IMG/VR virus record: IMGVR_UViG_3300046796_000243
Location: 1-64,000 of that record
Strand: one strand, 5' to 3'
DNA length: 64,000 nt
Source: a virus
Below, piece after piece: positions 16,408-45,063 of the stretch; within the stretch, counting starts at the first letter, position 1; the number at the start of each line of letters is the position of its first letter. A program made the translations under genes and the position numbers. The notes under the pieces are model-generated. The model was not told the DNA's origin. It ran no database searches and was given only the letters and a program-made list of their open reading frames with translations.

Positions 16408-17087
16408 TCACCGCGGTCACAGGCTACGTTCACATCCCGGACCATCCGCGTTCGGGGAACGAGTATTGTGACCTGGGACACAAGCTGTCGGCGTGCGACA
16501 TCAACCTGATGTGTACCAACCAGGAGGTCGAAGAGTGCTGGATGTTCGAGTTCTTGCAGCGGCGGGGCAAGAAGTTCACTTATTCGGCGGCGGACAACCC
16601 GAAGAAGAACTCGATCTCCTACCACATCGTGCAGGCTCAGAAGTCGCATTGGCTGGCGTCGGCGGCGCGATCGATGCCGGAGGCCGATCCCCTGGTCTGG
16701 ATTGATTTCGGGATCTTCCACGTTCCTGGGGTTACCCGCCCGATCATCGAATCCTTCATGAAGCGCGCGCAAGGCGAGCAGGCAATCACGATTCCCGGCT
16801 GCTGGGAAAAGGATTACGTCTACAATGACGCGCAGCCGTGCTGGCGGTTCTGCGGCGGGGTGATGGTGGTGCCGCGCGAGCACGTCTTCAAGTTCGACAT
16901 GAACATGAAGGAAGAGTACCTCACCTGGATGGAAGAGAAGAACAACCTGTCCTGGGAGGTCAACACTCTCGCCAGGCTGGAGCGGCGGGTCGAGGGCGCG
17001 CCGATCTGGTGGTACAAGGCCAATCACGACGCATCGCTGTTCACCAACTACCGGACGACGGAGCACGCCGATGGCACGCAGAGCTAA
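16404..17087 (+). CDS. HtrL/YibB-like glycosyltransferase (227 aa)
   Basis: The VWIDFGIFH block (98-106), CWRFCGGVMVVPRE (146-159) and a WEVNTLARLE acid-containing helix (184-193) match the order in the HtrL/YibB family, proteins with a GT-A-like fold linked to surface polysaccharides (from memory). The ATG overlaps the stop of the GT2 fusion, so the two are co-translated. Probable partner in the same glycan pathway; the acceptor is unknown. Confidence 0.7.
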   Translation: MITAVTGYVHIPDHPRSGNEYCDLGHKLSACDINLMCTNQEVEECWMFEFLQRRGKKFTYSAADNPKKNSISYHIVQAQKSHWLASAARSMPEADPLVWIDFGIFHVPGVTRPIIESFMKRAQGEQAITIPGCWEKDYVYNDAQPCWRFCGGVMVVPREHVFKFDMNMKEEYLTWMEEKNNLSWEVNTLARLERRVEGAPIWWYKANHDASLFTNYRTTEHADGTQS

Positions 17088-17880
17088 GGCTACCCAGAAA
17101 CTGCTCGACCAGGTCAATGCGGCGTGCCCGTCTCGCAACAAGGGCAGCGACGGCTGGATTGGTGACGCCGCGCACGCCGCGAGCAAGTCGGACCACAACC
17201 CCAATAGCGCCGGCGTGGTGCAGGCGCAGGACATCACCCATGACCCTGCTAGTGGATTTGACAGCCACAAGTTCGCGGAGTTCCTGCGCACTCACAACGA
17301 CAAGCGCATCAAGTACGTCATTTCAAATCGAAAGATCTTCTCTGGTCCGGCCGGACCGCAGCCTTGGGTATGGCGATCTTATTCTGGCAAAAATCCTCAT
17401 GACCAGCACGTCCATGTGTCGGTGGCTGATAGTGCCTCGCTTTACGACAGCACTGCCGCCTGGGAGATCCCATTTACAACTGGGTTGCCTGACACTTCCG
17501 CTCCCGTGATCACGCTGCCGGTGCTGAAAAAAGGCGCCAAGGGGTTCTATGTTGCGATGATGCAGACGCTGCTTGGCTTCACCGGCAGGGAGGTCGACGG
17601 CGATTTCGGTCCCGGTACCGAGAATTCGCTGAAGCAGTACCAGCGTATCCAGAAGCTGGACGCCGACGGCATCTGCGGCGTCTACAGCTGGCGCGAGCTG
17701 CTGCGGCCGTGGGCCAAGGAAACCGGGCTGCTGCCGGCCGATCCGAAGGCCAGGCTGACCGAGATGGCGCTGGTGGCGCAGAAGACCGGGTCGACGGCGT
17801 CGACCGACGAGCTGGTCACTGCCTTCGCCGCGGTGTTCGAAGACATCCTGCCGCCGGGGTTTGTGCTGAAGGAGGGTTAG
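17071..17880 (+). CDS. Endolysin: M15-like peptidase plus peptidoglycan-binding domain (269 aa)
   Basis: Cell-wall hydrolase. The N-terminal domain has SDHNPNSAGVVQAQDITHD (40-58) and HDQHVHVS (110-117), giving the His/Asp/His zinc ligands of D-Ala-D-Ala carboxypeptidase-like (M15) lysins. Residues about 150-215 are a PG_binding_1 repeat (VDGDFGPGTENSLKQYQR). No signal peptide is visible, so export would need a holin. GGAG is upstream of the ATG, and small membrane proteins follow. Confidence 0.9.
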   Translation: MARRAKATQKLLDQVNAACPSRNKGSDGWIGDAAHAASKSDHNPNSAGVVQAQDITHDPASGFDSHKFAEFLRTHNDKRIKYVISNRKIFSGPAGPQPWVWRSYSGKNPHDQHVHVSVADSASLYDSTAAWEIPFTTGLPDTSAPVITLPVLKKGAKGFYVAMMQTLLGFTGREVDGDFGPGTENSLKQYQRIQKLDADGICGVYSWRELLRPWAKETGLLPADPKARLTEMALVAQKTGSTASTDELVTAFAAVFEDILPPGFVLKEG

Positions 17881-18381: not shown

Positions 18382-18600
18382 ATGGCTTCAATGGCAATTT
18401 CCGTACTGTGGTTCCTGATCGGGCTGATCGTGCTCGCGGGTGTGATTTATCTCGCGATCTGGGTCATTGAGTCCTTCATTTTCCCAATTCCCGAGAAGGT
18501 AAAGCAGGGGATCTGGGTGGTTGTGCTGATACTCGCCCTGATCGCGTTGATTGGCATATTCGCTGGAGGCGGCCCAAATCCCTTTCACTTCTCGCGGTAG
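18382..18600 (+). CDS. Two-span holin candidate (72 aa)
   Basis: Two hydrophobic segments, LWFLIGLIVLAGVIYLAIWV and GIWVVVLILALIALIGIFAG, are separated by a short charged PIPEKVKQ loop; the tail is short. Size, two spans and position after the endolysin fit a class II-type holin. AAGGAGG is upstream, with the previous stop one base before the ATG. Confidence 0.7.
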   Translation: MASMAISVLWFLIGLIVLAGVIYLAIWVIESFIFPIPEKVKQGIWVVVLILALIALIGIFAGGGPNPFHFSR

Positions 18601-38469: not shown

Positions 38470-40010
38470 TGAGTTATCTGCTGTTGCCCAAAGGACTTGA
38501 TGTCGAGGCAACTGCTGGTGCCAAGGGTCCGATCGGTCCGACGGGGCCGATCGATACGGATGCCGGCGAAACAGAAGCACCGACAGGGCCAACCGCACCG
38601 GATCCTGCTGATCCTGACGGACTCAACAAGGCGACGATCTCGCTGTTTTTTCGGATACCAAGCCGGACTTATGACTTAGGGAAGTCGATTTTACTGTGTG
38701 CCTTTGGCAAAGGGCAGCAGGAAACCCCCTTGACGCCAATCGTAGAAAATCTTCCTGGTCCCGTGACACCTGTTTTTAATTATCCTTACGGCACCCCGGT
38801 AGATCCTGGCCCACTCTGTTTTGCGACCACCGGTTTTACGGAAGGAGAAAAAAGCGATCTACCTCCATGTTCCATTGCCGTGGAATGGACTGAATTCAAT
38901 ACGGCTGTCCTGGTCTTCAATTTCCAAACCAAGGGCATCGCCACCGGAGTCGGGCTTTCTGTTTCCGACAAAACGGCTTCTGAAGTGATGTTTCCCGAGT
39001 GGCCAGCTAATCTAAATGAGCTGCTACAAACCAATGGTTCTGGCTGGATTCGGCAGGACTGGTTCTGGATCGATAAACCCAGCAGCATCGTTATTGCGAT
39101 ATATAATCACGTCGTCCGAGCTTCCGGTCTTTCGGATCTCAGCAACGACGTGCTGAAAGCCAAGCCGGAATTCTATCATGTCAAAACCATACACCCCATC
39201 ACGCCAGATCGCTGGCATCATCTGTTGCTGTCGTTCGATCTGTCGCCTGAAATTGTTACCCGTGGTCCACCGCTTGAAGAGGGTCGTGATGGCCCGATAG
39301 GTAGCGGCTGGGACAATGTCTGGGAGGGTACATATGGATACGCCAAGCTGTGGTACGCGATCGACGACGTCGACTATCGTGGTCGCGCCAAAGAACTAAA
39401 TGATCGCGGCGACGTGCAATATCATTTAGGCCCCTATTGCGTTGATCACGACAGTTCGCTGACAGAATTGCTGATGCTCCGCGGATTCGGAGGAGGCCCC
39501 AAGCCGATGGGCGATCCAAACGGCATCCTGACCAAGGCGGGATGGGAAGTCCCTTATCATGGTTCCTCCGCTACGACCCTTGGCAATCAGCTGCTCATGA
39601 CCCCGGTCTATAATTTTTCCAACAGCACGCTGCCGGTCAAGGATGCCGAGTTGGGGATCCCGTCCATATCGGCTTACGTCGATGAGATTCATGAGGTCGA
39701 TATGGCCGAACTGCAGTTCTTTGCCGGTGTCGCGCTGGACACCGGCAAGGAGTCCAACCGCCGCATCTTCATAACCAAGGACGGCAAGCCGGTGTACGCG
39801 GACCAGAAAGCGGATGCCAACCATCCCAACAGCGGCTCGATCGAGCGGTTGGGCAAGGAGCCGGAGATCTACCTGCACAAGACCAAGAACTGGAAAACCG
39901 GCAAGAACCTGGGCACCGCCGGTGACTTGACGCCGACCGGCAAGATCGATCGGTTCAAGCCCGAGCCGAGCCTGCATGGCGACCAGACGGCCGTCCCGCC
40001 GAACCGTTAA
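38466..40010 (+). CDS. LamG/concanavalin-like tail protein with short collagen segment (514 aa)
   Basis: The N-terminus has KGPIGPTGPID, a collagen stub. The middle is rich in beta strands (FRIPSRTYDLGKSILLCAF, HVKTIHPITPDRWHHLLLSF) with the WHHLLLSFD motif typical of LamG-like sandwich domains. The stop codon lies in the promoter-like motif at 40006. Carbohydrate recognition or fibre attachment is likely. Confidence 0.72.
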   Translation: MMSYLLLPKGLDVEATAGAKGPIGPTGPIDTDAGETEAPTGPTAPDPADPDGLNKATISLFFRIPSRTYDLGKSILLCAFGKGQQETPLTPIVENLPGPVTPVFNYPYGTPVDPGPLCFATTGFTEGEKSDLPPCSIAVEWTEFNTAVLVFNFQTKGIATGVGLSVSDKTASEVMFPEWPANLNELLQTNGSGWIRQDWFWIDKPSSIVIAIYNHVVRASGLSDLSNDVLKAKPEFYHVKTIHPITPDRWHHLLLSFDLSPEIVTRGPPLEEGRDGPIGSGWDNVWEGTYGYAKLWYAIDDVDYRGRAKELNDRGDVQYHLGPYCVDHDSSLTELLMLRGFGGGPKPMGDPNGILTKAGWEVPYHGSSATTLGNQLLMTPVYNFSNSTLPVKDAELGIPSISAYVDEIHEVDMAELQFFAGVALDTGKESNRRIFITKDGKPVYADQKADANHPNSGSIERLGKEPEIYLHKTKNWKTGKNLGTAGDLTPTGKIDRFKPEPSLHGDQTAVPPNR

Positions 40011-40072: not shown

Positions 40073-42460
40073 ATGGCCGGTTCATCAGCCAGCGTAAGCC
40101 ACAGCGAAAGCCAATCCGACACCTACATCCCGGAGTATTCCGAGACACCCATCCTGCAGGAGATCGCCCTGCATGCGCGGGCGATGTCGGACACCGTCTA
40201 CAACTGGGGCATGGACCGGTTCAACAAGAACCAGGGTGACATCGACTCGTTGATGCGCGATGCGCTGTCCTACGCTTCGCCGCAGCGTATCGCCGTCGAC
40301 ATGGGGATGGCGGAAGCGGGTGTACAGCAGGCCGGCGAGCGTGGCCGTCTCAGTGCGATCCGCGACCTGGAGTCCTACGGCATCGATCCGTCGTCCGGCC
40401 GCTATGCGCAGCTCGACAGCGCCAACCGGGTCATGACGGCAGCTTCCGCGGCCGGTGCCGGCAACCAGCAGCGCATGGCCGACCAGGCCGCCGGCAACGC
40501 GATGCGCCAGCAGGCGCTCGCGGCCGGGATGCAGAACGCCCAGTTCGGGCTGGGCGTCGGTGATTCCGCCAACAAATTCCTGAACACGGCCTCGCAGCTG
40601 AAATATCCGCCGCTGGGTCGCAAGTCGACTTCTGTCTCCGACAGCGCGAGCAAGAGCGTACAGACCGACAAGCCCGATCAACCGAAATCGCCGCAGGATC
40701 CGAAGCAGCAGCAGGAGCAGCAGCCGAAGGGTGGCGCCGGTGCCGGCGACAAGGCGGCCAAGGCGGCCAAGCCACAGCCCCAGAAGGACAAGCCGCCGAA
40801 GGAAGAAGAGGATCCGACAAAGCCAAAAGAGACTGGGGAAGACGAATCGGATACCGGGGATCTGGCAAAAGAAGGCCAGCGCCTGGTTGGCGAGGTGCCG
40901 GACCCGTCCGAGTACGAAGGCAAGATGCCGCCGATCCCCGATCCGGCAGAACCCGACTTTTCCGATATCACGCCCAATACCGGCTATGCCCAGCCCGACC
41001 AGACCGCCGGGACCGAGGATCCAAACAACCTTACGGGTTACGCCCAGCCTGACCAGACCACCGGGACTGAAGACCCCAACAATCTGTCTCCGACCTATCA
41101 GCCCAACACCACGGCAGGAACCGAGGATCCATACAACATCTCCCCGGACCAGGGACCGGCAAGCCCGTCCGGCGGGGTACAGCGCGGGAACGATCTGGAG
41201 GGAGTACCGAACGGCCAACCGTTTGATCCAAATACACCGACGTCGGGCTACGACCCTTATGAGGGCAACGTCCAGAACGCTTCCTTCACCAGGGGTATCG
41301 ACCCGGACACCGGGCAGCCGGTCAGCAACACCGATGCTGAAACCAACCAGGATCCGACCGGCAGCCTCTACGGGATCGATCCGTCAGGCGGTGGCGACTG
41401 GACACTCGATGTCGCGCAGCCGACCGCGGCCGACTGGGGTGATACCCAGACAACGGATTTCGGCGACCAGCAGGGCACCTACGACTCCACGCTCGACACC
41501 TGGACCGATGCCGGCGGGGACTATCAGGCGCCGCAGGACGTCCAGTACGACGACACCGGCGATACCGGCGGGGACTTCACCTACGATTTTGGTCAGGACC
41601 AGGACTATTACGGCGACCAGACCTACGACTACGGCGACAACACCGGCGATTTCACCGACGCCGGCGACTACACCGATCCCGGCTACGAGTACGACGATTC
41701 CGGCGACACCTACGATTTCGGCGACGATTCCAGCGACTTCACGGACTACGACGCCTATGACGATTCCGGTGACGATTCCTACGAGGACTACGCCGACGAC
41801 AGCGGCGACGATTACGCCGACGAGGGTGGTGGCGATTACGAGGACGACAGCGGCGATTATGAGGACTCCGGCAGCGGCGACGACGAGGGGTACGCGCGCG
41901 GCGGGCAAGTCAGAATGAGGAGAGGCGGCATGCCGACCGGTTTCCAGCAGCAACGACCCCAACGGCCGGGACGCGGGCTGCCTCCACCGCCGCCTGGTGC
42001 TACGCGACTGGACCCACCGCCCCAGGCTCCGCGCCCGCAGCGTGGCGCACCGATGGCGCGGCCGGGTGGCCCCCGGCCGGGAGCAATGCCGCGCGGGCCG
42101 ATGATGCCCGGCAACATGATATCGGCCAACGGCATGCCGCCGCCGACCGGGCAGATGCCGCAGCGGATGGCGGGTGGCGGTCAGGCCGGACGCCCAGAGC
42201 CGACCCGCGGCGGCTTCGTGTCGCGCGAGCTGTCGCCGTCGAGCGGCAGCCGGACCGACGACGTGCAGGCCCGGCTCAACGCCGGCGAATTCGTGATCCC
42301 CAAGGACGTCGCTGCCTTCAAGGGCAAGGAGTTCTTCTACAAGCTGATCGCCCAGGCCCGTAAGAACCGGACCGGCGGCGGCCAGCCCCAGCAGCCACAG
42401 CAATCCCAGCGGCCCCAGCGGCCACAAACCGGCTATCGGCCGTCGCGAGGCATGCGATGA
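40073..42460 (+). CDS. Large disordered ejection/internal virion protein with acidic Tyr-Asp-Gly tract (795 aa)
   Basis: Helical Ala/Gln-rich N-terminal region (ARAMSDTVYNWGMDRFNKNQ, then an Ala-Gly stretch), a Lys/Pro-rich part, then a GYAQPDQTxGTEDPNNL repeat and a long tract of D, Y, G, S and E (residues about 485-610, with YDDSGDDSYED-type units). The C-terminus has VSRELSPSSGSRTDDVQARL then NAGEFVIPKDV, a motif I associate with podovirus internal proteins. Start ATG 40073 is after GGGGCC; a TTG at 40037 is possible. Probably ejected with DNA. Confidence 0.65.
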   Translation: MAGSSASVSHSESQSDTYIPEYSETPILQEIALHARAMSDTVYNWGMDRFNKNQGDIDSLMRDALSYASPQRIAVDMGMAEAGVQQAGERGRLSAIRDLESYGIDPSSGRYAQLDSANRVMTAASAAGAGNQQRMADQAAGNAMRQQALAAGMQNAQFGLGVGDSANKFLNTASQLKYPPLGRKSTSVSDSASKSVQTDKPDQPKSPQDPKQQQEQQPKGGAGAGDKAAKAAKPQPQKDKPPKEEEDPTKPKETGEDESDTGDLAKEGQRLVGEVPDPSEYEGKMPPIPDPAEPDFSDITPNTGYAQPDQTAGTEDPNNLTGYAQPDQTTGTEDPNNLSPTYQPNTTAGTEDPYNISPDQGPASPSGGVQRGNDLEGVPNGQPFDPNTPTSGYDPYEGNVQNASFTRGIDPDTGQPVSNTDAETNQDPTGSLYGIDPSGGGDWTLDVAQPTAADWGDTQTTDFGDQQGTYDSTLDTWTDAGGDYQAPQDVQYDDTGDTGGDFTYDFGQDQDYYGDQTYDYGDNTGDFTDAGDYTDPGYEYDDSGDTYDFGDDSSDFTDYDAYDDSGDDSYEDYADDSGDDYADEGGGDYEDDSGDYEDSGSGDDEGYARGGQVRMRRGGMPTGFQQQRPQRPGRGLPPPPPGATRLDPPPQAPRPQRGAPMARPGGPRPGAMPRGPMMPGNMISANGMPPPTGQMPQRMAGGGQAGRPEPTRGGFVSRELSPSSGSRTDDVQARLNAGEFVIPKDVAAFKGKEFFYKLIAQARKNRTGGGQPQQPQQSQRPQRPQTGYRPSRGMR
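40976..41145 (+). repeat. Tandem repeat GYAQPDQTxGTEDPNNL
   Basis: Two near-perfect copies plus a degenerate third (YQPNTTAGTEDPYN) encoded in a row in the ejection protein gene. A recent duplication, judging from the similar bases. Confidence 0.7.
41530..41890 (+). repeat. Acidic Asp/Tyr/Gly low-complexity tract (coding)
   Basis: Encodes a long run of DDTGD, DYGDN, DSGDD and EDY units with almost no positive charge. The complementary strand gives a hydrophobic Val/Ile frame that is an artefact. Confidence 0.75.
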
Positions 42461-45063
42461 AAAGCATGGGTTACGGCAGTTACAACGCCTATGGCGACAG
42501 CACGGTCCCGCATGGCGGGATGTATCCCGGCATGGCGTCGACGCCCCCGGCGCCCAGTGGGGATGCTTCGACCGGAAGCGATGTCGGGGCCGATGGAGGC
42601 GGCGATGCTGGCGTGGGTTATCGGGAGGGCGGTCCTGTCCGTCCTGCTTCTAAGCGCGCTACTGTATTACGCGCTCCTGCTGGTGCTCGCCGCCCTGGTA
42701 AGCAGTCTCGTCCTAAGCGTCGTAAGGCTGTTACGGGTTACGCTGGAGGCGGTTCGGTCAATCCTCTCCTGATGTCGGTGTCGCTGGACTCGCGTTCCAA
42801 GGGCGACACCCATGAGGAAGAGGATCGCGAGGCGTTGGCCACGCGGCCGGGTGGCGCACCCAGCGCGCCGCAGGAGTTCAGGCGGGGTGGCGAGGTCTAC
42901 GACGACGACGAACAGGATGACGACGACCAGGAGCAGGAGCCGGCTGACGAGGAAGAGCTAGAGCCTGGCGGCTACACACTGGCTGGCGGACCGGATGAGA
43001 TGCCCGAAGGCGAAGCCCCGGAGGAGCTACCAGAAGGCGAAGTGCCGGAGGAGCTGCCGGAAGGCGAAGCCCCGGAGGAGCTACCGGAATCTCCCGGCGG
43101 TGGTGGTGCGGGTGGCGGTGGCGGTGGCGCAGCTCCACAGCGCGCACCGACCGGCTATCAACAGCCGGAAGAGGAAGCCGCGCCCGGCGACGAAGCGCAG
43201 GCGACCGGTTACGGCCAACAGGCGCAGGCACAACCCAGGCCGGCGACCCCGCTCAAGGAGGTGCTCGACTACACACGCCGGCAGCTGGGTGTAACCGCGC
43301 CGCAGCAGGCGCCTGCGGCAGCGGAGTCACCGGACCAGCAGTTGACTGCCGCCAGCGCGGCAACGGTGCAGGCCGCCGGGCCGTCCGGTCAGACCGGGTC
43401 TACCGTCGACGAACCGGCCGAAACAGCGATCCCGCAGCCGCCCCCGCAGCAGGCGACCGCACCAGGAACCGAGCATGTGCCGGCTACGCCGTCCGTGCGA
43501 ACGGAGCAGCAACCCGCCACGCCTTCCGGTCCCGGCAACAAGCAGGCGATCCAGGATTACGTGTCCGGGAAGGGTGCGTTCACGCCGGATCAGATGACGG
43601 AGATACTGGATCGGACCAACCAGACCGACCCTAATCTTGGACAAGAGGGTTCAATCAGAAAGGCGTTCCAGGGCCTGGTCGACAAGGGCGACGTGGACGG
43701 GGCGTCCAAGTTCGTGCAGGCGCTCCGTCCGTCCTACGACAGCATGCGCGCGCTGCTGATCGCCGCCACCGCCAAGGGCGACTTCACCACGGCGATGCAG
43801 ATCGCCGGCCGGATGAACAGCCTGGTCCCGAGCGACGAGCAGGTCCGGTTCGACGAGACGGCGAACGGACAGATCCTGGCGACCATCCAGCCTGCCGACG
43901 GCGGGCCGTCGACCTCGTTCACGCTGACGCCACAGCAGTTCGCGCAATACGCCAACTCGCCACTCAGCCTGTTCGATCACACCGCCGAACAGGGGATTGG
44001 GACCAATTTGTCGATGCTGACGGGCGGGCCGGGCCAGCAGGGATCGTCGGCGTCAGCCGCCGGCACCCAGTTCGCTGGTGGTGCAGCTCCTGGCGCAACG
44101 ATGACCGACGCCGGACCAGCGACCGGCGCACAACCTCCGGCAGCTCGACCTCCAGTCACCGGTTTCAATCCCTATGGCGCCGGAGGTGATGATGCTGGTG
44201 GTCTGAAAGAACGGGGGTATCTGCGAGATACACCAGCGCCGAATCCGAACCGGCCGACAGTAGAGCCGATGGGACGGACCGCCCCCAGACAGGAATCGAA
44301 CGCCATGAAGGCGTGGCGCGCGTTCCCCTACGACAACCAGCGCACCCAGCGGGGTCGCTACGAGGAACGGCTGACCATGCAGGATCGCCGCGATGCGGCG
44401 CGGGGTAAGCCAGAAGATCGGATGGCGATCGAGCAGCTCAAGTCCAAGGATCGCGTCGAGCGCACCAAGGCGATGCTCATCAACAACTATTTGACCAACG
44501 GCACCAAGATCCAGAGCGAAGTCTTACACAGGTCTATGTCGGACTATCTGGCCCGGCAGAAATCATGGAACGATGCCAATCAGGGCGTGCCCTACGTTTC
44601 GCGCGACCCGGAACAGCGGGCGCGGGACAACGCCATGTTCCAGTGGCTGAACAACAATCTCCAGAACTCCCAGATTGACTTCACCCAGCCCAGCGGCCGG
44701 CGCGCGCCAGGCGCGCCGCAACAGGCACCGGCGCAGGCGCAGCCGCGTCCGGCACAGGCCACACCGGCAGCAGCCCCGGCTGGAGCACCGCCGCCGCCAC
44801 CGGCAGGCGTCGACCTCAAGACTTACAAGGGCACCGCCCCGCCCTACCAGCTCGCCCCGGCAGACAAGCAGGGCTGGCAGTGGTCCCACATGGAAGACGG
44901 TACCGGCTGGCTGCTGGTGCCGAGACAAAAGCCGGCCGCCGCAGCGCCCGCGCCAACGCCCGCGCCAACGCCCGCAGCGCCCAGGCCAGCGCCCGCGGCA
45001 ACGCCCGAACCCGAGCCTGAGCCTGCCGCGCCGTGGCGGTCACGGCCACCGAGTTATGACTGA
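42457..45063 (+). CDS. Large Pro/Ala/Gly-rich ejection-type protein (868 aa)
   Basis: Disordered N-terminus with a basic block (RRPGKQSRPKRRKAVTG), an acidic tract (VYDDDEQDDDDQEQEP), and tandem PEGEAPEELPEGE repeats near residue 185. The middle (about 365-520) has a folded helical stretch (KQAIQDYVSGKGAFTPDQMT, KAFQGLVDKGDVDGASKFV). The C-terminus is Pro/Ala-rich. The ATG overlaps the previous stop. Likely an internal virion protein. It hosts a hydrophobic open frame at 42605. Confidence 0.65.
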   Translation: MKSMGYGSYNAYGDSTVPHGGMYPGMASTPPAPSGDASTGSDVGADGGGDAGVGYREGGPVRPASKRATVLRAPAGARRPGKQSRPKRRKAVTGYAGGGSVNPLLMSVSLDSRSKGDTHEEEDREALATRPGGAPSAPQEFRRGGEVYDDDEQDDDDQEQEPADEEELEPGGYTLAGGPDEMPEGEAPEELPEGEVPEELPEGEAPEELPESPGGGGAGGGGGGAAPQRAPTGYQQPEEEAAPGDEAQATGYGQQAQAQPRPATPLKEVLDYTRRQLGVTAPQQAPAAAESPDQQLTAASAATVQAAGPSGQTGSTVDEPAETAIPQPPPQQATAPGTEHVPATPSVRTEQQPATPSGPGNKQAIQDYVSGKGAFTPDQMTEILDRTNQTDPNLGQEGSIRKAFQGLVDKGDVDGASKFVQALRPSYDSMRALLIAATAKGDFTTAMQIAGRMNSLVPSDEQVRFDETANGQILATIQPADGGPSTSFTLTPQQFAQYANSPLSLFDHTAEQGIGTNLSMLTGGPGQQGSSASAAGTQFAGGAAPGATMTDAGPATGAQPPAARPPVTGFNPYGAGGDDAGGLKERGYLRDTPAPNPNRPTVEPMGRTAPRQESNAMKAWRAFPYDNQRTQRGRYEERLTMQDRRDAARGKPEDRMAIEQLKSKDRVERTKAMLINNYLTNGTKIQSEVLHRSMSDYLARQKSWNDANQGVPYVSRDPEQRARDNAMFQWLNNNLQNSQIDFTQPSGRRAPGAPQQAPAQAQPRPAQATPAAAPAGAPPPPPAGVDLKTYKGTAPPYQLAPADKQGWQWSHMEDGTGWLLVPRQKPAAAAPAPTPAPTPAAPRPAPAATPEPEPEPAAPWRSRPPSYD
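42605..42772 (+). CDS. Nested out-of-frame hydrophobic ORF, holin-like (55 aa)
   Basis: ATG with GGAGG five bases upstream, in the +1 frame inside the larger gene. Residues from MLAWVIGRAVLSVLLLSALL onward form one or two membrane spans, followed by a basic amphipathic tail (VVRLLRVTLEAVRSILS). By hand count 42 of 55 nested-frame codons end in G or C, as is usual here, while about 31 of 56 codons in the containing frame end in T. That suggests selection on the nested frame. Possible holin, pinholin or channel peptide. Confidence 0.45.
   Translation: MLAWVIGRAVLSVLLLSALLYYALLLVLAALVSSLVLSVVRLLRVTLEAVRSILS
43002..43093 (+). repeat. Tandem PEGEAPEELPEGE repeat (coding)
   Basis: Three successive copies of a 10-residue unit PEELPEGEAP, near-identical in bases, in the acidic N-terminal part of the 868-residue protein. 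A likely slippage product. Confidence 0.75.

Follow-up and report, generated by a model that had tools for sequence, protein, structure and literature searches.

The lysis gene E of phiX174 lies inside gene D, where a membrane lysis protein is read in another frame of a virion-morphogenesis gene; E itself is both conserved and essential. Among the two-component spanins, the lipoprotein Rz1 can be encoded within Rz, which is a lysis gene. In single-stranded RNA phages, lysis genes (sgl) are often embedded in the +1 frame of less conserved regions (e.g. rep) and undergo gain and loss among closely related phages, according to the available extract of PMC7693330. In the same extract, 178 of the 293 candidates tested had a predicted transmembrane segment and showed no effect when plated on inducing medium. 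None of the literature titles listed describes a holin nested in a podovirus virion gene, which allows little conclusion about the literature as a whole.

In this study, we analyzed a hydrophobic open reading frame (ORF) nested in the +1 frame of a larger phage gene. The window, that is, the whole stretch of 64,000 nucleotides that was analyzed, is part of a virus record of 68,372 bases (IMGVR_UViG_3300046796_000243). The portal of this phage shares 58% identity with the portal of Rhizobium phage RHph_TM27A and 68-100% with those of the best 80 IMG/VR loci. Like phiX174 E, the nested ORF sits in a gene of presumed virion type; unlike E, it is unconserved in the homologues examined. With Rz/Rz1 it would have in common the arrangement of a nested lysis gene in dsDNA phages. 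It resembles in kind the sgl genes as the extract of PMC7693330 presents them, being small, preceded by a Shine-Dalgarno sequence, hydrophobic, read in the +1 frame within a less conserved region of a larger gene, and unconserved. The function of the sgl genes was tested by expression (PMC7693330, same extract), whereas the nested ORF is known from sequence alone. The nested ORF also belongs to a dsDNA phage in which an endolysin and a small membrane protein are already encoded. Our analysis suggests that the nested ORF is probably a by-product of an odd codon patch in a fast-changing basic linker, and not a gene.

The nested frame and its containing gene

The features of the locus, all on the plus strand, were as follows.

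42457..45063, plus strand: containing gene, 868 aa, an ORF for a presumed virion-associated protein, assigned from its neighbours only
42595..42599, plus strand: GGAGG, Shine-Dalgarno-like, 5 bases before the ATG at 42605
42605..42772, plus strand: nested +1-frame ORF, 55 aa, hydrophobic and Leu/Val-rich, absent from relatives, probably incidental
42616..42639, plus strand: first GYxxGGxV motif (GYREGGPV), aligned with GYARGGPV in locus L092
42640..42735, plus strand: basic linker rich in Arg, Lys, Pro and Ala, which aligns poorly with the nearest relative and in which the T run described below reaches its highest density
42736..42786, plus strand: conserved motif GYAGGGSVNPLLMSVSL, from alignment with the nearest relative

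The original prediction, a holin-like peptide of 55 residues with a basic tail encoded inside an ejection protein gene, was correct to the base in its reading of the ATG, the GGAGG and the hydrophobic peptide within the 868-residue gene. The ORF runs from the ATG at 42605-42607 through 55 codons to a TGA stop at 42770-42772. Its peptide has a best 19-residue Kyte-Doolittle mean of 2.64, sufficient for a membrane-spanning segment, and its C-terminal part contains the basic residues of a charged tail. An open frame with a start and a ribosome site is thus present inside another gene. The +1 frame is also open further upstream, and an earlier ATG at 42491 would give 93 aa. Both ends of the ORF coincide with coding elements of the containing frame: the GGAGG doubles as Gly-Gly codons (GGA GGC), and the stop is created by the Leu-Met codons (CTG ATG) of GYAGGGSVNPLLMSVSL and is also found in the nearest relative. 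GGAGG or AGGAG stands 4-10 bases before 6 of 186 off-frame +1 ATGs in plus-strand genes, so that such a site is not very rare.

The 868-aa protein had no PHROG or Pfam match and only its neighbours resemble virion proteins, so that the label of ejection protein is at most putative. The short motif [YF]AxGG/GYxxGGxV recurs in several presumed virion proteins of the phage group (19039-19782 and 41900-42800). After the basic linker, a 27-base tandem repeat of 3.7 copies (42991-43089) encodes an acidic Pro-Glu-Gly repeat of the same protein.

A run of T-ended codons in the containing frame

The following feature was delimited in the containing frame.

42556..42765, plus strand: maximal run of T-ended codons (best-scoring segment)

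The hand counts that accompanied the original prediction were confirmed, with 31 of 56 codons T-ended in the containing frame across the nested ORF and 42 of 55 codons G/C-ended in the nested frame; A-ended codons number 3 of 56 in the containing frame. The count of 31 ranks first among 14,215 windows of 56 codons in the genes of the 64-kb window (runner-up 23), where the genes, as for the expectations, simulations, Shine-Dalgarno base rate and codon-usage score in this study, were hand-picked from ORFs and not taken from an annotation. For the amino acids encoded, codon usage in the other plus-strand genes predicts 7.8 T-ended codons (z 9.3), and usage in the remainder of the gene predicts 6.7 (z 10.7). 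In a survey of 254 genes from the window and its relatives, z was 10.5 for this run and 7.3 for the next, the best value per gene having a median of 3.4 and a 99th percentile of 7.1; these genes, like the 409-kb coding set used below, are longest-ORF picks filtered by composition and may include spurious ones. All 14 Ala/Pro codons in the run are T-ended, compared with 20 of 214 elsewhere in the gene. The run is beyond chance and represents a large local codon anomaly.

A low-GC patch was considered and rejected as the cause. A/T-ended codons here (34 of 56) are equalled at 44077 (34) and exceeded at 38742 (36), and a plain fall in G+C is insufficient because T and A share those two patches, while here the excess is nearly T alone. 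The patch at 38742 belongs to a 514-aa gene and the one at 44077 to a later part of the 868-aa gene (56-codon windows, plus strand); both may reflect mosaicism. The idea that a synonymous T run is general in the portal gene was also rejected, since among 46 portals checked it was limited to some relatives (mean 8.3 versus 7.7 expected). Near the RETxRQRQ motif, the portals of L042, L043, L047, L059 and L060 have 16-18 of 56 codons T-ended, against an average of 11-12% T-ended codons in these portals, and this patch is common to a few relatives only.

The T preference differs among codon classes, 17 of 19 NCN codons being T-ended, 10 of 19 NGN codons and 1 of 8 NTN codons. In an NCN codon of the containing frame, a third base other than T places Pro, Arg, His or Gln in the nested peptide; in an NGN codon, C as third base places Ala there, which is also acceptable. 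If a uniform T bias is estimated from the other codon classes, 6.2 of the 19 NCN codons should end in T, and the 17 observed were reached in none of 100,000 simulations. An NCN excess of this kind would be expected if Leu were selected over Pro, Arg, His or Gln in the nested peptide. The class pattern fits selection on the nested frame, which is possible but unproven, and the size of the anomaly, both in Ala/Pro and in NCN codons, stands against the incidental origin that we favour. Codon bias in the overlap beyond the background, as expected of an overprinted gene, is thus present and class-specific.

These observations speak for a second reading, that of a young overprinted gene that arose in the hypervariable linker and is confined to this phage lineage. 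It would be translated from the ATG at 42605 by its own Shine-Dalgarno sequence, its product would be a small inner-membrane peptide acting in lysis or otherwise on the membrane, and selection for Leu and Val would have rewritten about 55 codons of the containing gene to end in T. We consider this combination unlikely. Besides the rank and class specificity of the run, it draws on the flanks of the ORF, which are without T excess (10 of 49 codons before it with 8.8 expected, and 5 of 43 after it with 6.0 expected), and on the position of the Shine-Dalgarno sequence and ATG at the 5' side. Against it, the maximal T segment already begins 49 bases upstream of the nested ATG (it ends 7 bases before the end of the nested stop codon), and the base rate given above is that of Shine-Dalgarno sites of equal strength.

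Codon run and hydrophobic look as one signal

T at the second codon position specifies Leu, Val, Ile, Phe or Met. Because a third-position T of the containing frame is a second-position T of the nested frame, the T-ending of the one and the hydrophobicity of the other are the same observation. The G/C-ended look of the nested frame follows likewise from the reading register, since its third position coincides with the first codon position of the containing frame, where G/C makes up 71% across the gene. When T was weighted 8- to 12-fold in synonymous choice, the +1 frame was open and transmembrane-like (at least 1.6) in 47-65% of simulations (3000 draws each), compared with 0.0% in the unweighted control.

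The codon-usage score of the nested frame was 0.16 (background mean 0.33 in frame 0 and -0.17 in the +1 frame). About 10% of 353 background +1 windows score as high, and the overall score is unremarkable for a +1 frame; the frame 'switch' falls in the 1.1% tail of the 353 windows. The argument from a switch in codon usage, on which the original prediction relied, was therefore borne out in part: the T run is beyond chance, while the G/C-ending and the codon-usage score of the nested frame are not.

A T-ended run yields both the membrane look and the codon look, and these should not be treated as separate lines of evidence. In the phage group, 409 kb of coding sequence contain 13 +1-frame ORFs of at least 50 aa with a mean of at least 2.3. 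De novo proteins in the +1 frame are enriched in hydrophobic residues according to the available extract of a review (PMC8227390), so that, as far as that extract goes, hydrophobicity alone is to be expected. Upstream, on the minus strand at 41384-42427, a very Val/Ile-rich ORF lies opposite an Asp/Tyr/Gly-rich part of the 807-aa gene and is another hydrophobic frame produced by biased coding of the other frame.

Relatives of the containing gene

Homologues of the 868-aa protein were found in 7 of 50 related records searched, which are part of the best 80 portal loci, with a best identity of about 51-55%. Searches with the protein alone or with the 2470-aa neighbour gave no close relatives, and neither the 807-aa neighbour alone nor a scan of genome contigs gave any relative. 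A three-row alignment of the 868-aa protein used as query led to 3 relatives, and others were obtained by way of alignments of the N-terminus of the 807-aa neighbour, of its C-terminus and of the portal.

The nearest homologue, L092 (L092/L112; 1099 aa), aligns through the stretch of the nested ORF. It comes from a related soil phage (IMGVR_UViG_3300011439_000016), occupies the same gene position and has the same order of GYxxGG, basic linker and GYxxGGSVNPxLMSVSLDSRSK. GYARGGPV, an Arg-rich linker and TGYAEGGSVNPMLMSVSLDSRSK in L092 correspond to GYREGGPV, linker and TGYAGGGSVNPLLMSVSLDSRSK in the window, and L092/L112 keeps GYxxGGPV, the basic linker and TGYAxGGSVNPxLMSVSLDSRSK in the containing frame. 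L092 differs in that its linker consists mostly of G/C-ended codons (CGC/CGG/CCG-type), with at most 6 of 56 codons T-ended within the first 160, and in that its +1 frame is interrupted by stops and lacks a hydrophobic run, sharing only the stop from the conserved Leu-Met codons. Compensating frameshifts, by which the true frame would be +1 through the linker, were rejected on the same comparison, as the nearest homologue has a basic linker in the containing frame and a +1 frame that is not hydrophobic. In the homologues L102, L110, L123 and L125, a basic stretch at the start or inside the protein is followed by a GYxxGG-type motif.

No transmembrane-like +1 frame was found at the place of the nested ORF in any of 14 homologues, a set to which L107 had been added. 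The best 19-residue means of their +1 frames over the first 150-160 codons were at most 1.65, versus 2.64 in the window, and a +1 frame of at least 1.9 occurred elsewhere in the gene in 3 of the 14 (L115, L117 and L123). One scan parsed 16 of 20 loci (L107, L108, L109 and L121 were left out) and, with four duplicates, covered 12 distinct loci including L120, for which homology is not shown; a second had 6 of 21 loci without a following gene and included several neighbours by position, such as L136, L138, L139, L141 and L142, with homology not shown. Disruption in close relatives had been named as an observation that would refute a nested gene, and in every homologue examined, the best at about 51-55% identity, the frame is interrupted or not hydrophobic. 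Preservation of the frame among relatives is thus not seen in the homologues examined, and the suggested selection on the nested frame is left with a fitting class pattern on one side and a broken +1 frame on the other.

On the comparative evidence, a nested gene appears possible but on balance improbable. The young-gene reading is weakened by this absence and by the lack of any match in related records, phages, plasmids, PHROGs and PDB, although two considerations temper the result. The best homologue is only about 51-55% identical, which leaves room for a gene confined to this lineage, and in ssRNA phages the embedded lysis genes may be present in one phage and missing from a close relative (PMC7693330, in the extract cited), so that non-conservation is not fatal to such a gene.

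The same comparison bears on a constraint of another kind, in which translation speed through the basic linker, or an RNA or DNA signal, chose T-ended codons and the ORF arose as a by-product. This fits a bias for T only, with few A-ended codons and no simple fall in G+C; no T run occurs in the corresponding part of the nearest homologue and no specific signal was identified, and of the readings given here we hold this one the least probable.

Lysis genes elsewhere in the window

Two further features bear on the question of a holin.

17071..17880, plus strand: endolysin-like gene, 269 aa, matching PHROG endolysin families and Pfam PG_binding_1
18382..18600, plus strand: gene for a 72-aa protein with two apparent membrane segments (hydrophobic stretches), shortly after the endolysin

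The 55-aa peptide had no match in PHROGs, Pfam, phage DNA, plasmid DNA or PDB and none in 50 related records (a search without a positive control), and its description as holin-like is without homology support, no known holin family being matched by the 55-aa form in PHROG, Pfam or PDB. The nested ORF is also about 25 kb away from the endolysin, outside a lysis cassette. The gene for the 72-aa protein has GGAGG 5 bases before its ATG. The protein itself gave no PHROG match and no Pfam match above the cut-off, and it matched 9 of 50 related records, with identities of 55-78% in 8 of these matches; the 50 records in the searches with the 55-aa and 72-aa proteins were a somewhat different set from those searched with the 868-aa protein. 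By position, the 72-aa protein would be a better holin candidate than the nested ORF, and its family is plausibly a holin family without a name so far. The presence of this recurrent membrane protein after the endolysin was counted for the incidental reading and against a young gene. The large share of transmembrane-bearing candidates without effect in the extract of PMC7693330 was likewise counted against a young gene.

Origin of the linker

The T run is densest at 42628-42729 (21 of 34 codons T-ended), where the alignment with the nearest relative is poor. One source could be captured foreign DNA, in which the linker once encoded a membrane segment elsewhere and the nested frame is a fossil whose frame is now shifted. 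The normal-looking codon-usage score of the nested frame would agree with this; on the other side, the 55-aa peptide has no related membrane protein, the T excess reaches past the linker into the conserved VTGYAGGGSVNPLL (6 of 14 codons versus 2.5 expected), and the repeated in-frame AAG Lys codons suggest selection on the containing frame. We regard such a capture as distinctly unlikely.

The incidental origin, which we prefer, would run as follows. Between two conserved glycine motifs, the 868-aa protein has a basic linker of low complexity that changes fast, and in this lineage the linker (about 42628-42735) would have gained T-ended Ala, Pro, Ser, Thr, Gly and Arg codons. Such codons necessarily give a Leu/Val-rich +1 reading that rarely meets a stop, and the frame ends at the TGA supplied by the conserved Leu-Met pair. 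The T run itself may have come from replacement or local expansion of the linker, e.g. by recombination with a T-rich relative.

A parallel case is found in L115 and its relative L103. The L115 homologue has a Pro/Ala linker in which 15 of 17 Ala/Pro codons are T-ended, with an open, Leu-rich +1 frame (2.05); in L103, 2 of 19 Ala/Pro codons are T-ended and the +1 frame has stops. This pair shows how Leu-rich +1 frames arise from T-ended linkers. The lineage-specific linker of L115 (8290-8523 of IMGVR_UViG_3300046683_000413) has a +1 frame of 77 aa from an ATG, with no strong Shine-Dalgarno sequence.

Two T-rich relatives, L132 and L133, are possible donors in a recombination, GCT and CCT together reaching up to about 50% of the Ala and Pro codons in a gene. 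Their main forward genes have a T-ended share of 0.31-0.44 at a GC content of about 0.5, and they have an upstream GEFVIPKD-type motif in common with the phage of the window. No donor sequence for the linker was found in phage DNA, in the window or at the loci of relatives: the DNA of the segment gave short chance matches only against phage records, and a comparison of the segment with the remainder of the window and with the relatives' loci, by blastn and six-frame tblastn, returned only the homologous motif of the nearest relative and short fortuitous matches. Repeats give little indication of a local expansion: two 10-base copies lie 15 bases apart, and TRF detected no tandem array at the linker.

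Conclusions

The locus provides a caution, in that a run of T-ended Ala, Pro, Arg and Gly codons mimics a membrane protein with normal codon usage in the +1 frame. Were the nested ORF a true gene, the range of overprinted membrane peptides would grow to include variable linkers of virion genes in dsDNA phages. Such a gene would be comparable in kind to the sgl genes of ssRNA phages, but would come on top of a normal endolysin-based lysis cassette.
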